This document shows positions 2,545 to 42,000 of a stretch of DNA of 42,000 bases, one piece after another. The DNA lies in the IMG/VR virus record IMGVR_UViG_3300045110_000142, positions 1 through 42,000 of that record. One strand, written 5' to 3'. Numbering within the stretch: the first letter of the stretch is position 1; every line of letters begins with the position of its first letter. Both the position numbers and the translations under genes were made by a program. The stretch comes from a virus. A model generated the notes under the pieces. The model was not told the DNA's origin and did not search any database. It was given only the letters and a program-made list of their open reading frames with translations.

Positions 2545-4197
2545 TCACGACATCACTTTCTCAAAACGTCGATCGAGGATCTTGAAAAAGCGCCCATCAG
2601 GCCGCACGCGGATCTCGCACGGCTTGAGTAAGAGTCCCTCATTTGCGAGCCGCACTAGCTCGTAGATGTCACGTGCCTTTTCGTATCCCGGCAGCATGTT
2701 CATTGCCAGCCATGTAATTGCCTTGCCGTGCGGATAGGTACCAGGAGGATGCATCGGGCAGATCCACTCAGAGTAGGAGGAAAAACGTCCGGACTGATAA
2801 TCGACGCGCATTGTCGGAGTGGTATTCCTGTCACCGCCTTTATAGTGCACGCTGGCATGGACGGACGTCACCTCCACCCATTGTGGCAGGTTGGACGAGT
2901 AGCCGTCAGAGACAATTTCGGCTTCTTCGTCCGCCTTAGCCTCATGCATGAGGCGCGCTTTCGGCGTGACTTCTTCTGCCACTAGCGGCTTTGGTTTCGG
3001 AAACTCATGCCCACAGTCGGGACATTTTTCTGTTTTTTCCGGGACGATCGAATGGCAATCCGGACACTCCATCACGTCAACATGATGCACGAGATCGGAG
3101 CGTATCGTATCGATCGGACCATGACGCCGCGTGTTGCCGGCAAAGTCCAACACCAGACAGTCTTGCTTGCCGGGAGCATTGCGCAGGCCGCGGCCGACCT
3201 GCTGTAGCCAGAGCCCTGCGGACTGCGTCGGGCGCAAGCCGGCAATTAGGTCGACCTCGCAGACGTTGAAGCCGGTGCCGAGCACCATGACCGAGCAAAG
3301 CGCCTGCGTCTCGCCACGCCGGAACTCATCGATGATGCGATCACGGTCGCCTTTCGGCGTAATACCAAAAACTTTGTCAGCTTTGACACCAATGCGTTGC
3401 AGCTCCTCGCACACATGCGTGCCGTGAGCAACAGTGATGCAAAACACCAGCCACGATCGGCGGTTAAAGCCAGCGCCGCATATCTCTAAACATGCGGAGC
3501 GAGTGATATTCTCCTTGTCAATCGCCTCCTCTAGTTCTGAGGTGATGTACTCGCCGCCACGCATGTGCACGCCAGAAACATCGAGTTTTTGTTTGGTTGA
3601 TTTAGTGACCAGCTTGCAAAGATAACCCTGCTCGATCAGGTCACGCACGTTAGCCTCATAGACCACGTCGTCGAATATTTTGCCGTCGCCTTTGTTGAGC
3701 TGCCCGGTATCAAGCCGGAACGCTGTTGCGGTTAGGCCGGCAATGCGCATATCCGGCGTGCGCGCCTGCTGCTCGTCGAAAAATTTGCGGTACATGGTGT
3801 CGTCGTCGTGCGACACCAGGTGCGCCTCATCGATCAACAAAAGATCGAACTCACCCACGGTCAGCGGACGCTTCCAGACGCTTTGTATGCCCATAAACAG
3901 GATGCGTTCTGCAACATCGCGCCGGCCCATGCCGGCCGAATAGATGCCAGCGGGAGCCTCTGGCCACAGCGCCAGCAATTCGCGATAGTTCTGGTCGATC
4001 AACTCGCGCACATGCGTGATCATGCCGATACGCATGGTAGGAAAGTCGCGCAATAGCTCCTGGCAGATGGCGGCGATCACTAGGCTCTTGCCGCTGCCGG
4101 TCGGCAACACGATCAGGCCATTGCCGCCGTTGAGACCCCAATATTTGGTAAGCGCGTCGATCGCCTCACGTTGATAGTCCCTGAGTTGGAAACCCAT
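2545..4197 (-). CDS. SF2 DEAD/DEAH-box helicase, RadD-like
   Basis: 550 residues. Motifs in order: Q-like FQLRDYQ at the N-terminus, Walker A PTGSGKS (32-38), DEAH box (123-126), motif III LTATAFR, and motif VI QQVGRGLRN. A zinc ribbon follows (CPDCHSIVPEKTEKCPDC). The C-terminal part contains SEWICPMHPPG and GKAITWL, reminiscent of the tail of RadD/YejH-type helicases. It probably remodels forks or recombination intermediates in the phage replication module. Met at 4197 is chosen because GGAG lies 8 bases upstream; an in-frame ATG at 4215 has no clear ribosome site. The first 32 bases overlap the end of the exonuclease gene, indicating coupled translation. Confidence 0.9.
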   Translation of the reverse strand: MGFQLRDYQREAIDALTKYWGLNGGNGLIVLPTGSGKSLVIAAICQELLRDFPTMRIGMITHVRELIDQNYRELLALWPEAPAGIYSAGMGRRDVAERILFMGIQSVWKRPLTVGEFDLLLIDEAHLVSHDDDTMYRKFFDEQQARTPDMRIAGLTATAFRLDTGQLNKGDGKIFDDVVYEANVRDLIEQGYLCKLVTKSTKQKLDVSGVHMRGGEYITSELEEAIDKENITRSACLEICGAGFNRRSWLVFCITVAHGTHVCEELQRIGVKADKVFGITPKGDRDRIIDEFRRGETQALCSVMVLGTGFNVCEVDLIAGLRPTQSAGLWLQQVGRGLRNAPGKQDCLVLDFAGNTRRHGPIDTIRSDLVHHVDVMECPDCHSIVPEKTEKCPDCGHEFPKPKPLVAEEVTPKARLMHEAKADEEAEIVSDGYSSNLPQWVEVTSVHASVHYKGGDRNTTPTMRVDYQSGRFSSYSEWICPMHPPGTYPHGKAITWLAMNMLPGYEKARDIYELVRLANEGLLLKPCEIRVRPDGRFFKILDRRFEKVMS

Positions 4198-5245
4198 CGA
4201 TCCACTCCTCTCCATCTATTTTCAGCACGTAAGTCACGGTCGCCACCGTCGGCATATCAGCGTCATCAACGTCAGTAGTGGCATCGGTCTGCTCGCCAGG
4301 AACAAGACTCGGCAGGTAGAGATGCCGATGACAGCCAGCCTCTTGCTCTTTTCGCGTTAGGGATTTGTTGAAACGCCCACAATGCCACGTGCCGCTATTA
4401 TCGCTATCTCCGCCATCAATCAGCGGTGTCGCATGCAGGCAGGTGCGGCAATTACGGTACGCAAACACGTTCTCATGGCAGATGCCTTTGAAAGCGCACC
4501 AGCCGCAGATGTAGGCCTCACGCGCGTCTGGATCTGAATGCAGTTTAGTCGGTGCGGTCGACGCCTCGATGATGCGCCGCGCTCTTATCATCAAATTTTC
4601 AGCGTAAGTTTTATCGAAACGCACCCTTTCGGTGTAAATCGAATCGTCGTTTTTATTGACCGCAACATAAAGCGCACGCTCGATTTTGGCGTGCAGCATG
4701 TAGAGCTGCATTTGCGCGTAGTGCCCCGGCTTGGATTTTTTCACGCCGCTCTTGAACAACGAAGCGTAGGATTTCTCGTTGTGGGTTTTGACCTCGAGCA
4801 CGTGAGGTGATTTTGGCGCCTCGATCACGCCGCTGTTGATGATGCCGTCCATGTGCGCACGGAAATGCCCGCCAAGCGCAACCATAACGGCCTGCTCGCC
4901 AGTGACGTCCATGCCGATCGCGCGCAGGTTTTCGATGACACGCTTTTCCTCACGGTGTCCGGTTTCGAAAAGGCGCAATTTGCGTCCGGAAAAATCCTCA
5001 CTGGCAGCTGCCCAGCGAAATCCGTACCAGAGCGCGCGATCGCATTCATGACCAAGCACAGACGGCCCGAGATAGCCCCGCGGCGGTGTTGCCCTTGCTT
5101 GGTCTTCATAATGTTTGTAGATCGCCGCTGTCGTTGTGTGCTTGTCTTCTGGAATCAGCACCATAGGTCGATCCTCCACCCGCAGAGACAGCTCTGCATC
5201 ATTGAAAAAAACAGCCCGCCAAGGCGCGGGCTGCAAGTTGCTCAT
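4166..5245 (-). CDS. Cas4-like PD-(D/E)XK exonuclease with probable 4Fe-4S site
   Basis: 359 residues. The nuclease core reads as GHREE (97-100), HMDG with D133, EVK (E151, K153) and Q178-x3-Y182, the order seen in Cas4/AddB/RecB-family nucleases. C68 together with C247-x2-C250-x5-C256 fits the four-cysteine Fe-S cluster of Cas4-type enzymes. A further Cys/His cluster (CRTC...WHC...GCHRH, about 266-311) may bind zinc. It probably resects DNA ends to supply single strands for the Sak4-like annealing system encoded just upstream. It starts 5 bases after the DUF669 stop and overlaps the helicase gene. Whether it is a 5' or 3' exonuclease cannot be read from sequence. Confidence 0.88.
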   Translation of the reverse strand: MSNLQPAPWRAVFFNDAELSLRVEDRPMVLIPEDKHTTTAAIYKHYEDQARATPPRGYLGPSVLGHECDRALWYGFRWAAASEDFSGRKLRLFETGHREEKRVIENLRAIGMDVTGEQAVMVALGGHFRAHMDGIINSGVIEAPKSPHVLEVKTHNEKSYASLFKSGVKKSKPGHYAQMQLYMLHAKIERALYVAVNKNDDSIYTERVRFDKTYAENLMIRARRIIEASTAPTKLHSDPDAREAYICGWCAFKGICHENVFAYRNCRTCLHATPLIDGGDSDNSGTWHCGRFNKSLTRKEQEAGCHRHLYLPSLVPGEQTDATTDVDDADMPTVATVTYVLKIDGEEWIDGFPTQGLST

Positions 5246-5250
5246 CGATC

Positions 5251-5922
5251 CTAAAATGGTATTTCGTCGTTAGGATCGAGCCGCTGCGGCGGCGCCTGCC
5301 GCGGCTGCGCCCACGGCCTGGCAGTGTTATTACGCACGGCGGGTGCTGCCGCAGGAGGTGCTGCCTGCCGTTGCGGAGCAGGAGCAGGAGCAGGAGCTGC
5401 AGGAGCAGCGGCTGCTTGCGGCGGCGCTGCCTGCCGTACCGGCGCAGATCTAGCCGGCTGCCGTGCCGATGCAGGTCTAGCCTGTTGCCGCGGCGGCGGC
5501 GCTGCGGGAGTATTTGGCGGCGCAGTTTCGAGTTTGGCGTAGCGCACCTGATTTTGCGGCGGATAGAAACCGTTTTTGTCTTTACGGACGCCCACCTGTA
5601 TGTGGAACGGCTTGAAATGCAGCTCCTCGCTGTCGCTCACATGTACAAGATCGAGAAGCCGGCAAAGACTAGCGAGAGAGCGCTTGGCTATTTCCTGCGT
5701 TTTTTCATTGACGTTCTCGATATTCAGCTGATCCCATAATTTGCGATTGGCGTAGGGACCATCTAACACCTCGAATGTGAGTTTAAGAAAATACCCAGTC
5801 CCGGCCTTGGTCGGCACCATGGCGCTTTCGATGATTTGTACATGGTAGATGCCTGCGGGTAGCAGATCGAAGTTGCGATCATCCGGCGGAACGTCAGAAG
5901 CATCAAAGTTGAGTTGTACCAT
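5251..5922 (-). CDS. DUF669-type ssDNA-binding protein with SSB-like C-terminal tip
   Basis: 223 residues in three parts. Residues 1-130 form a compact domain (LPAGIYHVQIIESAMVPTK, YFLKLTFEVLDGPYANRKLW) typical of DUF669 proteins that accompany Sak4 recombinases. Residues 135-215 are a disordered Ala/Pro/Gln/Arg-rich linker. The last residues are NDEIPF. Bacterial SSB proteins end in DDDIPF, the tip that recruits repair and replication partners, so this layout (domain, disordered linker, acidic IPF tip) copies SSB. It lies 4 bases downstream of the ATPase gene and 5 upstream of the exonuclease gene. Assignment as the phage SSB is inference, but the layout is clear. Confidence 0.85.
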   Translation of the reverse strand: MVQLNFDASDVPPDDRNFDLLPAGIYHVQIIESAMVPTKAGTGYFLKLTFEVLDGPYANRKLWDQLNIENVNEKTQEIAKRSLASLCRLLDLVHVSDSEELHFKPFHIQVGVRKDKNGFYPPQNQVRYAKLETAPPNTPAAPPPRQQARPASARQPARSAPVRQAAPPQAAAAPAAPAPAPAPQRQAAPPAAAPAVRNNTARPWAQPRQAPPQRLDPNDEIPF

Positions 5923-5926
5923 AGGA

Positions 5927-6766
5927 TTAACCTTTCGCTTGCTGTTGAGGTTTGGTTTTAAGTTGAGTGACTTGCTCTTGTGGTGCGGGCATATCGAGCG
6001 GCGGCTGTGCTGGGAAATACTGCGCTAAGGCGCGGTATCCTTTGCCGCGTTCAAATAGGAGTTTATCTGGCACGTGGTATCTGTTTTTAGCGACAAATGC
6101 CGGCCGCGGCGCAGCATAGAGCCAGCGATTGCCACCACCGTCGGCGCGGGCGCGGTTCCCCTTCTTCCCCTTACCGCCGTCTTCCTGCTTGATCGTGACG
6201 TCCTGATTGAGGAACAAGATAGCGTCCATCTCGTCCTGGAAGATCCCGATCGCGCGTTTGTGCAGTTTGATGTCAAAACGCGAATAGCTCTGCGTCATCG
6301 GATCTTCCACAGTGACAATCGTGGAGTGTGCAACAAAGATCACGTTCATGCCGCGATCGCGGCGTAAGCCATTCGTATATTCCAACAACTCGCGCCAGTA
6401 GACGTCAGCTGTGACGTAGCCCTTGCCAAATCCGGGTGTTTCGATGTTTGCCCATGCATTGTCGAGGCAGACCTGTGCCCACACCATCGGCTCAAGCCGG
6501 TCGATCGAATCGATGACAACGGTCTTGTAGTCGTGATCATGATCGTAGAGCGACCGGACCGCATCCATGACCTGCTCGTAGTCGTGGATATACCCAAACG
6601 TCGTAAGTTCGACGTCCCCCGGCGTGCCGTCCTCGACCTGGATGAAAACCGGGTCAGGCCACTCGGCGGCGAGTGTGGTTTTCCCCATCCCCGGCGGGCC
6701 GTAGATCAAAACGCGAGGCGGCAATGATGCCGTCGTGCGCCGCAAGTCGGCGACTGAAAGTGCCAT
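5927..6766 (-). CDS. Sak4-like RecA-fold ATPase (AAA_24 phage nucleotide-binding protein)
   Basis: 279 residues. Walker A is GPPGMGKT (23-30) and Walker B TVVIDSID (82-89). A sensor-like region FVAHST follows, and the core ends near residue 235. This single RecA-like core without an N-terminal DNA-binding domain is typical of Sak4 single-strand annealing/strand-exchange proteins, and its DUF669 and exonuclease neighbours match known Sak4 cassettes. GAGGA precedes ATG 6766. The C-terminal 40 residues are Pro/Gln-rich and probably disordered. A generic AAA ATPase is the alternative; the context makes the recombinase role more likely. Confidence 0.85.
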   Translation of the reverse strand: MALSVADLRRTTASLPPRVLIYGPPGMGKTTLAAEWPDPVFIQVEDGTPGDVELTTFGYIHDYEQVMDAVRSLYDHDHDYKTVVIDSIDRLEPMVWAQVCLDNAWANIETPGFGKGYVTADVYWRELLEYTNGLRRDRGMNVIFVAHSTIVTVEDPMTQSYSRFDIKLHKRAIGIFQDEMDAILFLNQDVTIKQEDGGKGKKGNRARADGGGNRWLYAAPRPAFVAKNRYHVPDKLLFERGKGYRALAQYFPAQPPLDMPAPQEQVTQLKTKPQQQAKG

Positions 6767-8197: not shown

Positions 8198-8808
8198 CTG
8201 CCGCCAGCAATATGACCAATCAAGAACTAATCGAATATATCGGCAAGCTGTCACATCGCGAGCGCGAACGCAGATACTTGTTGCGGGCGCTGCTGTCGAC
8301 GATGCCGTGTCCACACTGCGGCAGCCCCATCGATTATTTCAGCGTCATCGGCATCAACATCAATGACCTGGACCCGGACGGAAAACTCCCTACCGAAGGC
8401 CGCTGCCCCGACTGTAGTGGAGATATCCGCTACACCGTGCGTTTCACCGGAAAATTATGGGAATGGCGCAAGAACGGTCCGACGCCGGAGCTGCCATCCG
8501 GAAAAGAGAGCGACACTGTGCGTTTTGATTTTCTAAGAAGGACACAAGAGGACGATACAATGAAAACGACAGCGACAGCGACAACGAAGAAAGCAGCGAG
8601 GGATCTAGTGCGTGAAGCTGATCTCTTGATTATCGAATCGATGATCGACCGTTACGGCATTGACAGCGTGCTGATGGGCGTTTCCAGCATCTGCGGGGCC
8701 AAGGCGGAGCACATCTCGCATGCTTGGCAGGACGCACATCTCGCCAAACGCTGGGCCGAGCTAGAAGGCGCGCTTGGCGTGCTCGTACCGAAGGCGGTGG
8801 GACTATGA
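8194..8808 (+). CDS. Hypothetical protein with zinc ribbon
   Basis: 204 residues from GTG 8194 (AGGA 7 bases upstream, overlapping the previous stop as GTGA); ATG 8212 is an alternative. The N-terminal half carries CPHC and, about 35 residues later, CPDC, a four-cysteine zinc ribbon. The C-terminal half (from about 8561, an internal ATG preceded by GAGGA) is helical and resembles an independent small domain (MKTTATATTKKAARDLV onward). The internal start could give a second, shorter product. Function unknown. Confidence 0.7.
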   Translation: MTAASNMTNQELIEYIGKLSHRERERRYLLRALLSTMPCPHCGSPIDYFSVIGININDLDPDGKLPTEGRCPDCSGDIRYTVRFTGKLWEWRKNGPTPELPSGKESDTVRFDFLRRTQEDDTMKTTATATTKKAARDLVREADLLIIESMIDRYGIDSVLMGVSSICGAKAEHISHAWQDAHLAKRWAELEGALGVLVPKAVGL

Positions 8809-9317: not shown

Positions 9318-9517
9318 GCGAGATCGAAAATCCGCGACTGATGGAACATCTCGGCGATGGCCTTTGCGTTGATTACGACGGCGAACAAATCAGATTGTTC
9401 ACACCACGAGAGGAGGGCATCCACGAAGTGTATATGAACCGGAACGTGCTAGGCTCGTTCCTGGACTACCTTATCACCATCGGACTGCAAACCCCTAAAC
9501 ATGAGGACTGCAAATGA
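9314..9517 (+). CDS. Small acidic hypothetical protein
   Basis: 67 residues from ATG 9314, overlapping the previous stop (ATGA) and itself overlapping the next ATG (9514). It contains CVDYDGEQIRLFTPRE and a helical end. No family recognised. The tight overlaps on both sides support a real gene translated as part of the operon. Confidence 0.65.
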   Translation: MSEIENPRLMEHLGDGLCVDYDGEQIRLFTPREEGIHEVYMNRNVLGSFLDYLITIGLQTPKHEDCK

Positions 9518-10203
9518 GGAAGCTTTTGCTAGCAAGTGTATTCGCGGCCCTGGCCACTCCTGCCTTGGCCGACACGTTCCAGGCTGACTCGTTCAGCCAG
9601 CCGAATGGGTTTCAAGACCTCACCATCACCCTTGGCGCCCTGACCGAAACCGTGCGTGTGGGCGAGATCAACCTGCACCAGAACAATCCCACCGCCGATC
9701 TGTTAGTCTGGTGCTTGGATGTGAACGATTTGTTAACTGTACCCTACACGTTCCAACTGCATCAACTCGGCGCTGGGCAGACCTTTCCCGGACTTCCTGC
9801 CGGCGGCTTTGATGGCGGGCAGCTACGGCAGATTGCCAGCCTGATGCTGCGCGGCCTGACGCTTGGCGGTCTTGACGCCAACCAGGACGACGCGGCAACG
9901 CAGCTCGCCATCTGGCGCGTGGAGTATGGCGCAGCGATCGTGTTCGCTAATCTGCCCACCGCGCTGCTCAACCGCATGAACCTCGAACTAGCCGACAGCG
10001 CACCTGGGGGTTCGATCGATTGCCCGACTTGCACGCTTACCGTGCTGACTGACGCAGTCGCGGCGCCCAATCAGGCGCTTGGGTTCGCAGTCAATGCCGT
10101 CCCCGGACCTATTGCAGGTGCCGGATTGCCTGGACTGATCGCCGCATGCTTTGGCCTGCTCGGCCTACAGTGGAGGCGCCGGCGCCGTAAACTGCTAGGC
10201 TGA
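9514..10203 (+). CDS. Secreted protein with PEP-CTERM-like sorting tail
   Basis: 229 residues. The N-terminus is a signal peptide (MRKLLLASVFAALATPALA, cleavage before DTFQ). The C-terminal 34 residues (from 196) are tripartite: VPGPIAGAGLPGL, a hydrophobic span, then five arginines and a lysine. This matches the PEP-CTERM/VPxPA class of sorting signals handled by exosortase. The middle has WCLDVND and ATQLAIWRVEYG, phrases typical of such proteins in alphaproteobacteria. It probably reaches the host envelope. It closes the plus-strand operon and is unusual cargo for a phage, so likely a lysogenic-conversion or host-surface gene acquired from a bacterium. The processing enzyme must come from the host. 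Confidence 0.85.
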   Translation: MRKLLLASVFAALATPALADTFQADSFSQPNGFQDLTITLGALTETVRVGEINLHQNNPTADLLVWCLDVNDLLTVPYTFQLHQLGAGQTFPGLPAGGFDGGQLRQIASLMLRGLTLGGLDANQDDAATQLAIWRVEYGAAIVFANLPTALLNRMNLELADSAPGGSIDCPTCTLTVLTDAVAAPNQALGFAVNAVPGPIAGAGLPGLIAACFGLLGLQWRRRRRKLLG

Positions 10204-12709: not shown

Positions 12710-14236
12710 CTATGCTGCCTCCAGCGCCTCGATACGCGCCTTAAGTTCCTTGCATGCATTCACCAGCGCGTAAATCAGCGCACCGGTATCGAGTGTACGC
12801 ATGTCATCCACCGGGATGCCATCAACAAACCCGTCGATTTGCGACACCATTTCCGGCATTACACCTTCCACTTCCTGCGCTACCAATCCAATGTATACAC
12901 GACCATCCGGCACGTGACCGCCATGCGGCGATGCGTCGGCACCGTCGAACGTGTAGCTAACCGGCCGTAGCTGCGTAATATCAGCAAGGCCTTTGGTGTA
13001 GTCGCCGAGCACAGTTTTGGTGCGCGCATCGCTGCTGTCCCACCAAGGGCCACCGCCGGGTTTGTACGGCTGCGCGCCTCCTGTACTCTCAAAGTAAAAA
13101 CTGCCGTTTACATCAAAATAGGCTCGCCGAGCTGCGCCGGTTCTAAACCCAAGCAAATGCGAGGTGTAGGAACCAACGAAGGTGCCGCCAGCATCGGCGC
13201 CAGAATACATGGAACGTGTGCCATCAGACAGTTCAGTGTAAGCAGCACTACCAACCACTGACAGTCCGCCGCTACTAAATATGGTAGAAACAGCCGGATC
13301 ACCGACAATAACACGGCCACCTGCCTGCACTGTTACGCGCACGGCATTGTTTGTTCGCAGAGCAAATTGAGTGGCTGGGTAAGAACCGATAAAACTTCCA
13401 CCGACATCTGCACCGATCACCGTCGATGCAGTGCCATTGGTCACCTCGATATAGCCATGGCTACTATCGCGAACAGACAGCGCCGCGATGCTGAACACTC
13501 TATTGACTGTCAGGTCACCCATGTTGATGTAACCAGTGGGATCAACATTTATGTGGCTGACATTATTCGTACGGATGTTAAAGTTGGAGTTAGCACCAAT
13601 GGACCCGCCAGTAGTGTCAGAACCGATCAAAGTTGCATTTATGCCTGTCGTCAATTCGATGTAGGCGCCGCTGTTTTTGGCGACCGTGAGTTGACCGGTA
13701 CCGTAAACCGGCGTGACCGCAGGCGCCGGATTGATAATCAAATTCCCAGTCATGGTATCGCCGGCCTTGGCCACAAAAGAACCCTGACCGTCGAGCATCC
13801 AGGCTCCCCACACGCCGGCTATTTTCTGCCGTACGTATTTCAGGCCGGGAGTGGTGGTACCGCTTTGATCACGCGCTTCAACTGTCACATTCAAGTTGAG
13901 CTGCGGCGTGGCGATCGGATCGCCAACATAGGCAATACCGGTGAATGCATGCCCAGTAACCGGAGCACCGCTAGCCGCGGTCGTCGCTGAGAATGATCCA
14001 GGTATCCACACTTGCGTGTCAAAATTAGTGACAGCCTGATTAGCCTTTTCGGCGGAAATGCCAACTAACGCTGTATCAGGTGAGGTGCCGCCAGTGCCGC
14101 CAGAAGCAACAGGCCGCGGCTGATTGAGATCGAACTCAATATCGTGATTGGTGCCGTTATATTTGGCGCTCTCGATCGTCGTGTTGGGCACGACATCGGG
14201 AAATGGCAACGAATAATTACCGCCAGTGCGTGGCAT
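12710..14236 (-). CDS. Tail fibre/spike with C-terminal S74 intramolecular chaperone
   Basis: 508 residues from ATG 14236 (GAGG upstream). The N-terminus (MPRTGGNYSLPFPDVVPNTT) is a probable virion-attachment segment. A repetitive beta-rich shaft (GAYIELTTG, GYIEVTNGT, AAYTELSDGT repeats) follows. Near residue 400 is SSDARTK, the Ser and Lys of the self-cleaving endosialidase/S74 chaperone, and then VYIGLVAQEVEGVMPEMV and a terminal coiled coil (KELKARIEALEA). The chaperone trimerises the fibre and is then cut off before the Ser. This is the likely host-recognition protein. Confidence 0.88.
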   Translation of the reverse strand: MPRTGGNYSLPFPDVVPNTTIESAKYNGTNHDIEFDLNQPRPVASGGTGGTSPDTALVGISAEKANQAVTNFDTQVWIPGSFSATTAASGAPVTGHAFTGIAYVGDPIATPQLNLNVTVEARDQSGTTTPGLKYVRQKIAGVWGAWMLDGQGSFVAKAGDTMTGNLIINPAPAVTPVYGTGQLTVAKNSGAYIELTTGINATLIGSDTTGGSIGANSNFNIRTNNVSHINVDPTGYINMGDLTVNRVFSIAALSVRDSSHGYIEVTNGTASTVIGADVGGSFIGSYPATQFALRTNNAVRVTVQAGGRVIVGDPAVSTIFSSGGLSVVGSAAYTELSDGTRSMYSGADAGGTFVGSYTSHLLGFRTGAARRAYFDVNGSFYFESTGGAQPYKPGGGPWWDSSDARTKTVLGDYTKGLADITQLRPVSYTFDGADASPHGGHVPDGRVYIGLVAQEVEGVMPEMVSQIDGFVDGIPVDDMRTLDTGALIYALVNACKELKARIEALEAA

Positions 14237-40899: not shown

Positions 40900-40932
40900 C
40901 CCCCGTCACCGGCATGGTGGCGGGGGATTTTT
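40900..40932 (+). terminator. Rho-independent terminator
   Basis: CCCCCGTCACC (40900-40910), loop GGCAT, GGTGGCGGGGG (40916-40926), then A and TTTTT (40928-40932). An 11-bp stem with one G.U pair. It ends the plus-strand pair 40180-40866. The convergent small gene at 40939-41154 ends 7 bases beyond the T run. Confidence 0.9.
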
Positions 40933-40938
40933 AGTGGT

Positions 40939-41154
40939 TTACTTGCCTATCCAGCGATAACAAACCTCACCAGAGGCATCGATTTTGGTTTCTATCTGGC
41001 CAGTCCTGACCATGTCAGCTAACACTTTTTCGGTCAGTGCATGCCGGCGGGCGCGAGCGATCGCCATGTGCCTTTCAAATTCAGCCTTCAGTTTTGGGTT
41101 TTTGTTTATTTGATCAAGAGCTTCGCGCCGTTGCGCGGGAGTCAATTCGGGCAT
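40939..41154 (-). CDS. Small helical hypothetical protein
   Basis: 71 residues with a strong ribosome site (GGAGG, 5 bases before ATG 41154). The N-terminal half is helical (LTPAQRREALDQINKNPKLK). The second half looks like a small winged-helix ending (TEKVLADMVRTGQIETKID). The last residues are YRWIGK; the PrimPol-DUF3987 protein upstream ends YTWIGK. It is the last minus-strand gene after the origin-like block. Role unknown. Confidence 0.7.
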   Translation of the reverse strand: MPELTPAQRREALDQINKNPKLKAEFERHMAIARARRHALTEKVLADMVRTGQIETKIDASGEVCYRWIGK

Positions 41155-41216: not shown

Positions 41217-41344
41217 TGCGCATTTGTAACCGGCTGGCAACGGCATGCAAAGTGGCGACTAAAAAAAACACCCGTCACACCCGTCCCGACCCGTCCCCTG
41301 GGTTAAATAGATTTGGTGATTTTAGGGGTGATTTTCAAAGTTAC

Positions 41345-41517
41345 GGGACAGGTGGGACAGGTGCTATTGATGATAAATATATATATATATATCATATACT
41401 TACGTCTATAGCACCTGTCCCGGACACGTGGGTCACCTGTCCTGTTTTTTTTGCCGTTTTTCACCCCGCCTATAGCACCTGTCCGGGACACGTGGGGCAC
41501 TGTTTTTTGCCGTTTTT
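41345..41517. other. Origin-like block: iterons, AT tract, duplication
   Basis: No gene fits here. Five copies of GGACAGGTG/CACCTGTCC are present: two direct at 41346-41354 and 41355-41363, three inverted at 41412-41420, 41434-41442 and 41476-41484. A 14-bp inverted repeat GGGACAGGTGCTAT / ATAGCACCTGTCCC (41354-41367, 41408-41421) brackets a 40-base AT-rich stretch containing an alternating TA run. The unit starting TATAGCACCTGTCC (26 bases) at 41407 recurs at 41471 with one change, followed in both by a T run and GCCGTTTTT. Iterons beside a melting-prone tract next to the primase gene suggest a replication origin. Confidence 0.6.
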
Positions 41518-42000
41518 TCACTTCCCGATCCACGTATAAAACCGGACGAGTGGCCCCCCCTTCCCCTTCGGCTTGGAAGGCCTGACATCGACATGTATTT
41601 GGTCTGCTATCTCCAATGAAATGAGCCCCTCGTTCACCTCCTTGACCTTCCAGTTGTGCTTGAGGCCACGATATATTTCCCGTCTTGACACCTCACCCTT
41701 GCTATACATCACCCGCTTGAGCGCCTTGGATAGCGCCTGCGTGTCACTGTCGGCCATGTACAGACCGGCACCTTCAACCATGCTTTGAGCTGACTTGACC
41801 GCCCACGCCTGCCCCCAGACCAGATCCTCTTCGTCAACGACGGCGTTCCACCGCACACCGGCACGCCCCACGGCATGCAGTGTGGCTAAACGCACCGAGG
41901 TCTCGGCAACCCGAATGAGAAGCGCACCCTCTTCGTCGTTGCCCCTGGCAAGCTGCCGCATTTTCTTTTCGAAGGCGCGCGCAACATCACACGCCTCGTC
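41518..42000 (-). CDS. PrimPol-DUF3987 replication protein, C-terminal part (continues from position 1)
   Basis: The frame is open from the window edge to TGA at 41520-41518; 41873-41518 supplies the last codons of the protein that begins at 2191, and 41874-42000 repeats 1-127. The C-terminal 120 residues hold helices (ALLIRVAETSVRLATLHAV, AQSMVEGAGLYMAD) and a winged-helix-like end (SRREIYRGLKHNWKVKEVNEG), as expected after a DUF3987 ATPase core, possibly for DNA binding. 2191 plus 356 bases is 849 codons including the stop, so joining keeps the frame. Confidence 0.88.
   Translation of the reverse strand, partial: DEACDVARAFEKKMRQLARGNDEEGALLIRVAETSVRLATLHAVGRAGVRWNAVVDEEDLVWGQAWAVKSAQSMVEGAGLYMADSDTQALSKALKRVMYSKGEVSRREIYRGLKHNWKVKEVNEGLISLEIADQIHVDVRPSKPKGKGGPLVRFYTWIGK
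41874..42000. repeat. Right copy of 127-bp terminal direct repeat
   Basis: Identical to 1-127 and in the same reading frame of the same gene. It marks the point where the linear window closes into a 41,873-bp circle or permuted genome. Confidence 0.9.

Follow-up and report, generated by a model that had tools for sequence, protein, structure and literature searches.

A predicted replication origin of pri-rep-ori layout directly downstream of the PrimPol-DUF3987 gene in a tailed phage genome

A compact block of short repeats around a TA-rich tract, situated at positions 41344–41517 directly 3' of a PrimPol-DUF3987 gene, is in all probability a phage replication origin of the pri-rep-ori layout, and the PrimPol-DUF3987 protein is most likely its initiator. 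The origin role had been proposed in the initial annotation of this DNA, and it is supported by comparison: the succession of iterons, AT tract and further iterons recurs 3' of the PrimPol stop in a considerable share of distant relatives, where the repeats themselves are unrelated in sequence, and origins of the same layout from PICIs have been shown to work (PMC6092414). The layout is already known from PICIs; what appears to be new is its presence in an ordinary tailed phage whose probable initiator is of the PrimPol-DUF3987 type.

The window, i.e., the whole stretch of DNA that was analysed, comprises 42,000 nucleotides. Its first and last 127 bases (positions 1–127 and 41874–42000) are identical, and the ends therefore join to give a circular genome of 41,873 bp. 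It encodes a portal, a major head protein and terminase, as is characteristic of a tailed phage, and the presence of these genes ruled out the idea that the element is a PICI, a satellite devoid of most virion genes. The PrimPol gene (859 aa, minus strand) crosses the junction of the circle, has its stop at 41518, adjoining the repeat cluster, and is part of a replication module, the same set of genes that accompanies PrimPol in the Pseudoalteromonas phages H40/1 and C7. PADLOC gave no match. The genes and ends that matter for the analysis are as follows.

41518–41873, minus strand: 3' part of the PrimPol-DUF3987 gene, including the C-terminal winged helix
1–2224, minus strand: 5' part of the PrimPol-DUF3987 gene, with the Prim-Pol domain, a Pro/Ala-rich linker and the MCM-like AAA+ domain
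2545–6766, minus strand: replication module of SF2 helicase, Cas4-like exonuclease, DUF669 ssDNA-binding protein and Sak4-like annealing protein
40939–41154, minus strand: 71-aa ORF, the next gene past the block in the direction of PrimPol
41874–42000, unstranded: terminal direct repeat, copy of 1–127, by end identity

The PrimPol stop and the 71-aa ORF, which are co-directional, are separated by 363 non-coding bases, and the block begins immediately past the stop, in the position initially described. Its elements are listed below.

41344–41517, unstranded: core of the predicted replication origin, an AT-rich tract between iterons of both orientations
41346–41354 and 41355–41363, plus strand: two GGACAGGTG iterons arranged head to tail (period 9 bp), to the left of the TA tract (exact matches)
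41412–41420, minus strand: GGACAGGTG iteron (exact match)
41434–41442, minus strand: GGACAGGTG iteron (exact match)
41476–41484, minus strand: GGACAGGTG iteron (exact match)
41422–41430, plus strand: copy with one mismatch, GGACACGTG
41486–41494, plus strand: copy with one mismatch, GGACACGTG
41412–41430, unstranded: first composite dyad, the inverted iteron CACCTGTCC beside GGACACGTG
41476–41494, unstranded: second composite dyad, CACCTGTCC-G-GGACACGTG, within the 34-bp duplication
41403–41436 and 41467–41500, unstranded: direct duplication of 34 bp, 91% identical, with a spacing of 64 bp
41370–41395, unstranded: TA-rich palindromic tract, the predicted melting site, with a 14-nt inverted repeat (41370–41383 / 41382–41395)
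41354–41370 and 41405–41421, unstranded: 17-nt inverted repeat (94%) around the whole TA tract

Thus, the five iteron-like copies in both orientations that the initial annotation had noticed were located exactly (five exact GGACAGGTG between 41344 and 41517, two on the plus and three on the minus strand), and the 14-bp inverted repeat and the duplication spaced by 64 bp were likewise recovered. The longer inverted repeat of 17 nt, which gives the region 41354–41421 a strong potential to form a hairpin or cruciform, had been overlooked.

The block departs clearly from chance. Its 174 bp hold one 9-mer in five exact copies, against a maximum of 2 across 4,000 Markov sequences, and at least four exact copies within such a length were found at only three other places of the whole circle, at 1.4–1.7 kb, about 18.0 kb and about 22.0 kb. 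The other place with five exact copies (~1400–1700) lies inside the PrimPol gene, and the repeats there encode a Pro/Ala/Asn-rich linker (NPANPANPAN, QTPANTP) that is modelled with low confidence; the places at ~18.0 and ~22.0 kb, each with four exact copies in 174 bp, are found inside long minus-strand ORFs. The TA run of 16 bp is the longest in the genome, the next being of 7 bp, and the 36-bp stretch of the block that holds the TA tract exceeds every other in the circle in AT content. No RNA family was matched in Rfam, and no intrinsic terminator was found at the block; one was placed at 40900–40926. The consensus DnaA box TTATNCACA is absent from the whole circle, which sets the block apart from DnaA-dependent iteron plasmid origins. 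Cumulative GC skew on the closed circle, which had been put forward as a check of the origin, turned out to be uninformative: by the difference between the arms, 41.4 kb takes only rank 141 of 419 and does not stand out. The best point is at 7.7 kb, where the genes change direction, so the skew probably reflects transcription.

The domain structure of the PrimPol protein is consistent with the role of an initiator. It combines a Prim-Pol domain (PF09250, E 1.9e-20) carrying the DxD motif with a helicase carrying Walker motifs, and the catalytic residues D92, D94, K494, D540 and E541 are invariant in 26/26 aligned sequences. The Pfam DUF3987 score of 25.4 bits is just under the gathering cut-off of 27, and a PHROG primase family matches over the region with an E value of 1.9e-46. 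A part of 741 residues was modelled at an overall pLDDT of 68; its PrimPol domain is modelled well, and the linker that joins it to the AAA+ domain has low confidence. The best structural match of the N-terminal PrimPol domain, and the closest solved structure to it by fold, is ORF904 of pRN1, an archaeal plasmid, the comparison covering this fold; the AAA+ domain model matches mostly MCM helicases. The C-terminal 160 residues are modelled as a winged helix (pLDDT 92); its PDB matches, which cover a part of the model, are weak (best E 0.005, none below 0.001) and include transcription factors as well as origin-bound Orc1/Cdc6. The same set of domains, namely Prim-Pol, a candidate helicase/DUF3987 and a predicted C-terminal winged helix, was described for PrimPol-PV1 proteins of the PrimQH and All3500 families, and it was suggested that their winged helix recognizes origins (PMC5862659). 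The passages on these proteins contain no description of an origin; the present analysis adds a candidate site, with relatives.

The origin role is backed by comparison with other loci. No close relative of PrimPol was found in IMG/VR by peptide pattern, and neither a single-protein scan with PrimPol nor two DNA-pattern scans gave a close relative. The PrimPol relatives in the phage collection are distant (<30% identity among the matches listed), and a contig with a neighbouring helicase that is 77% identical (L015) stops short of the primase. Thus, no close relative that includes the primase region was found. Since the PrimPol alignment is too divergent to scan with, loci were gathered via the Cas4-like neighbour, and the PrimPol genes were then located with a profile. 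A detector of repeated words showed that, in many loci, arrays of unrelated sequence begin no more than ~100 bp from the PrimPol stop. On reading, these loci have a TA-rich tract with repeats to its left and right, mostly 100–250 bp past the stop, and the repeats are often head-to-tail pairs with a period of 7–10 bp. Position and layout are thus kept in many distant relatives, whereas the repeat sequences differ.

For counting, the best 10-mer with no more than one mismatch, on either strand, was taken in the 400 bp past the PrimPol stop. The first set comprised 34 PrimPol loci dereplicated at 60% identity, including the window; the threshold of five copies was picked after inspection of this set and held fixed for the second one. 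At least five copies were found in 12/34 PrimPol loci versus 40/2,334 windows elsewhere in these loci (p 1e-12) and versus 7/467 ends of other long ORFs; without the window, 11/33 loci reach five copies (p 2e-11). In the second set, consisting of loci from bacterial genomes, the proportion was 4/14 against 20/1,210 (p 1e-4), and three of the ten loci less than 60% identical to the first set reach five copies. The 400 bp past the stop also contain the AT maximum of the whole locus in 15/34 and 7/14 loci, where about 1 and 0.3 would be expected by chance. This argument counts for less than the repeats, since DNA between genes tends to be AT-rich. Roughly two in three loci of the first set fall below the threshold. 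The 10-mer detector overlooks short repeats, as in L021, which is among the closest relatives and scored three, although GGGAAAG-like repeats surround a TA tract there; L021 and L050 are both sub-threshold loci in which AT tracts and shorter repeats are visible on reading. In L017 and L037, no such repeats or AT tract were seen on reading after the PrimPol stop. In L017, seven copies of AGTGTCACG at 8496–8640, ~960 bp past the PrimPol stop, may represent a displaced origin.

In PICIs, primase and initiator genes, which are sometimes fused, are followed by the origin, in which an AT-rich region is placed between two sets of iterons, and rep plus ori supported plasmid replication (PMC6092414). 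The window is similar in that its block is directly 3' of the primase/initiator gene, its iteron sets flank an AT-rich tract, and its PrimPol combines primase with helicase. However, the likeness to the pri-rep-ori of SaPIs and Gram-negative PICIs is one of layout: the window is a complete tailed phage, and its helicase part resembles DUF3987 and is predicted to fold like MCM. Streptococcus thermophilus phage Sfi21 also has an origin beside its primase gene. No paper on the origins of phage PrimPol-DUF3987 proteins was found in a literature search that covered a minority of subscription journals. Within this search, the initial remark that the origins of these systems are little described held for full phages, the PICI layout apart.

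Binding of the iterons, melting of the TA tract and the start of replication at the block are predicted. The C-terminal winged helix of PrimPol would bind the GGACAGGTG iterons that flank the TA tract, and the MCM-like AAA+ part would assemble as a ring at the block, melt the tract and unwind the DNA. The N-terminal PrimPol domain would then make the first primers. The SSB, annealing protein and helicase of the phage would come next, and the host or another polymerase would do most of the synthesis. A broader generalization is offered tentatively, as a possibility on which we would not yet rely: one phage protein may recognize, melt, unwind and prime a short origin that keeps its position past the gene, while the repeat and the winged helix change together quickly, giving a lineage-private origin code. 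Comparison of winged-helix similarity with iteron similarity gave a Mantel p of 0.10, with few pairs of intermediate similarity and no winged helices in the range of 60–85%.

This lack of clear tracking between winged helix and iterons would also fit an origin whose iterons are bound by the product of the 71-aa ORF or by a host factor, which recruits the PrimPol-helicase. The ORF directly follows the block, and its last 29 aa show a weak likeness to the C-terminal wing of PrimPol (hhalign probability 20%). At the same time, the 71-aa protein has no family match, the genome contains no consensus DnaA box, and PrimPol itself is predicted to have a DNA-binding winged helix, so that we consider such a separate binder improbable. 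As an observation by itself, the 71-aa ORF ends in YRWIGK, which resembles the end of PrimPol, YTWIGK. The block is situated in a gap between co-directional genes, and repeated operators exist in phages; its repeats might accordingly serve a transcription regulator of the downstream small genes. However, a promoter scan gave one weak site, no more than in shuffles, and distant phages, too, have an AT maximum with repeat sets on either side just 3' of their primase gene, which makes operators very unlikely. Equally slight are the chances of a site of single-strand initiation or priming, packaging or recombination instead of a double-strand origin, as might be proposed from the very stable strand fold (5.4 sd below dinucleotide shuffles, z −5.4, as DNA), for the relatives share two iteron sets around an AT tract and not one hairpin, and the terminase genes (38.3–40.0 kb) are away from the block.

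The origin bound by PrimPol-DUF3987 itself, which we prefer, provides a large group of phage systems, whose DUF3987 helicase domain is still labelled as being of 'unknown function', with a located origin that can be tested, and ties full phages to an origin layout known from their satellites. The rule that repeats surround an AT tract just past the primase stop predicts origins in many phages, and origin specificity becomes accessible to experiments in which winged helices and repeats are swapped on laboratory plasmids.

Repeat arrays after helicase genes of the DUF5906/VapE/D5 type were also considered. As in the window, GGACAGGTGGGACAGGTG is found within ~330 bp past the stop of such a helicase in L144, L149, L151, L153, L155, L156 and L163. 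These viral contigs differ from the window in the helicase family and in having longer tandem arrays of 9-mers, (GGTGGGACA)n. The word occurs after such helicases in 7/21 cases versus 2/20 for a reversed-word control, a weak and non-significant excess (p 0.08), and the idea that GGACAGGTG is shared with DUF5906 elements by descent was dropped, because the control also finds arrays after helicases. Unrelated tandem 9-mers past D5/DUF5906-type helicase genes, at 3103–3120 in L172 and at 14131–14148 in L169, are likely further origins. Elsewhere in the window, positions 9514–10203 (plus strand) encode a protein of 229 aa with a signal peptide, for which a family search gave no match of weight; by eye, its end is PEP-CTERM-like (PGPIAGAGLPGL...WRRRRRK), which is unusual in a phage.
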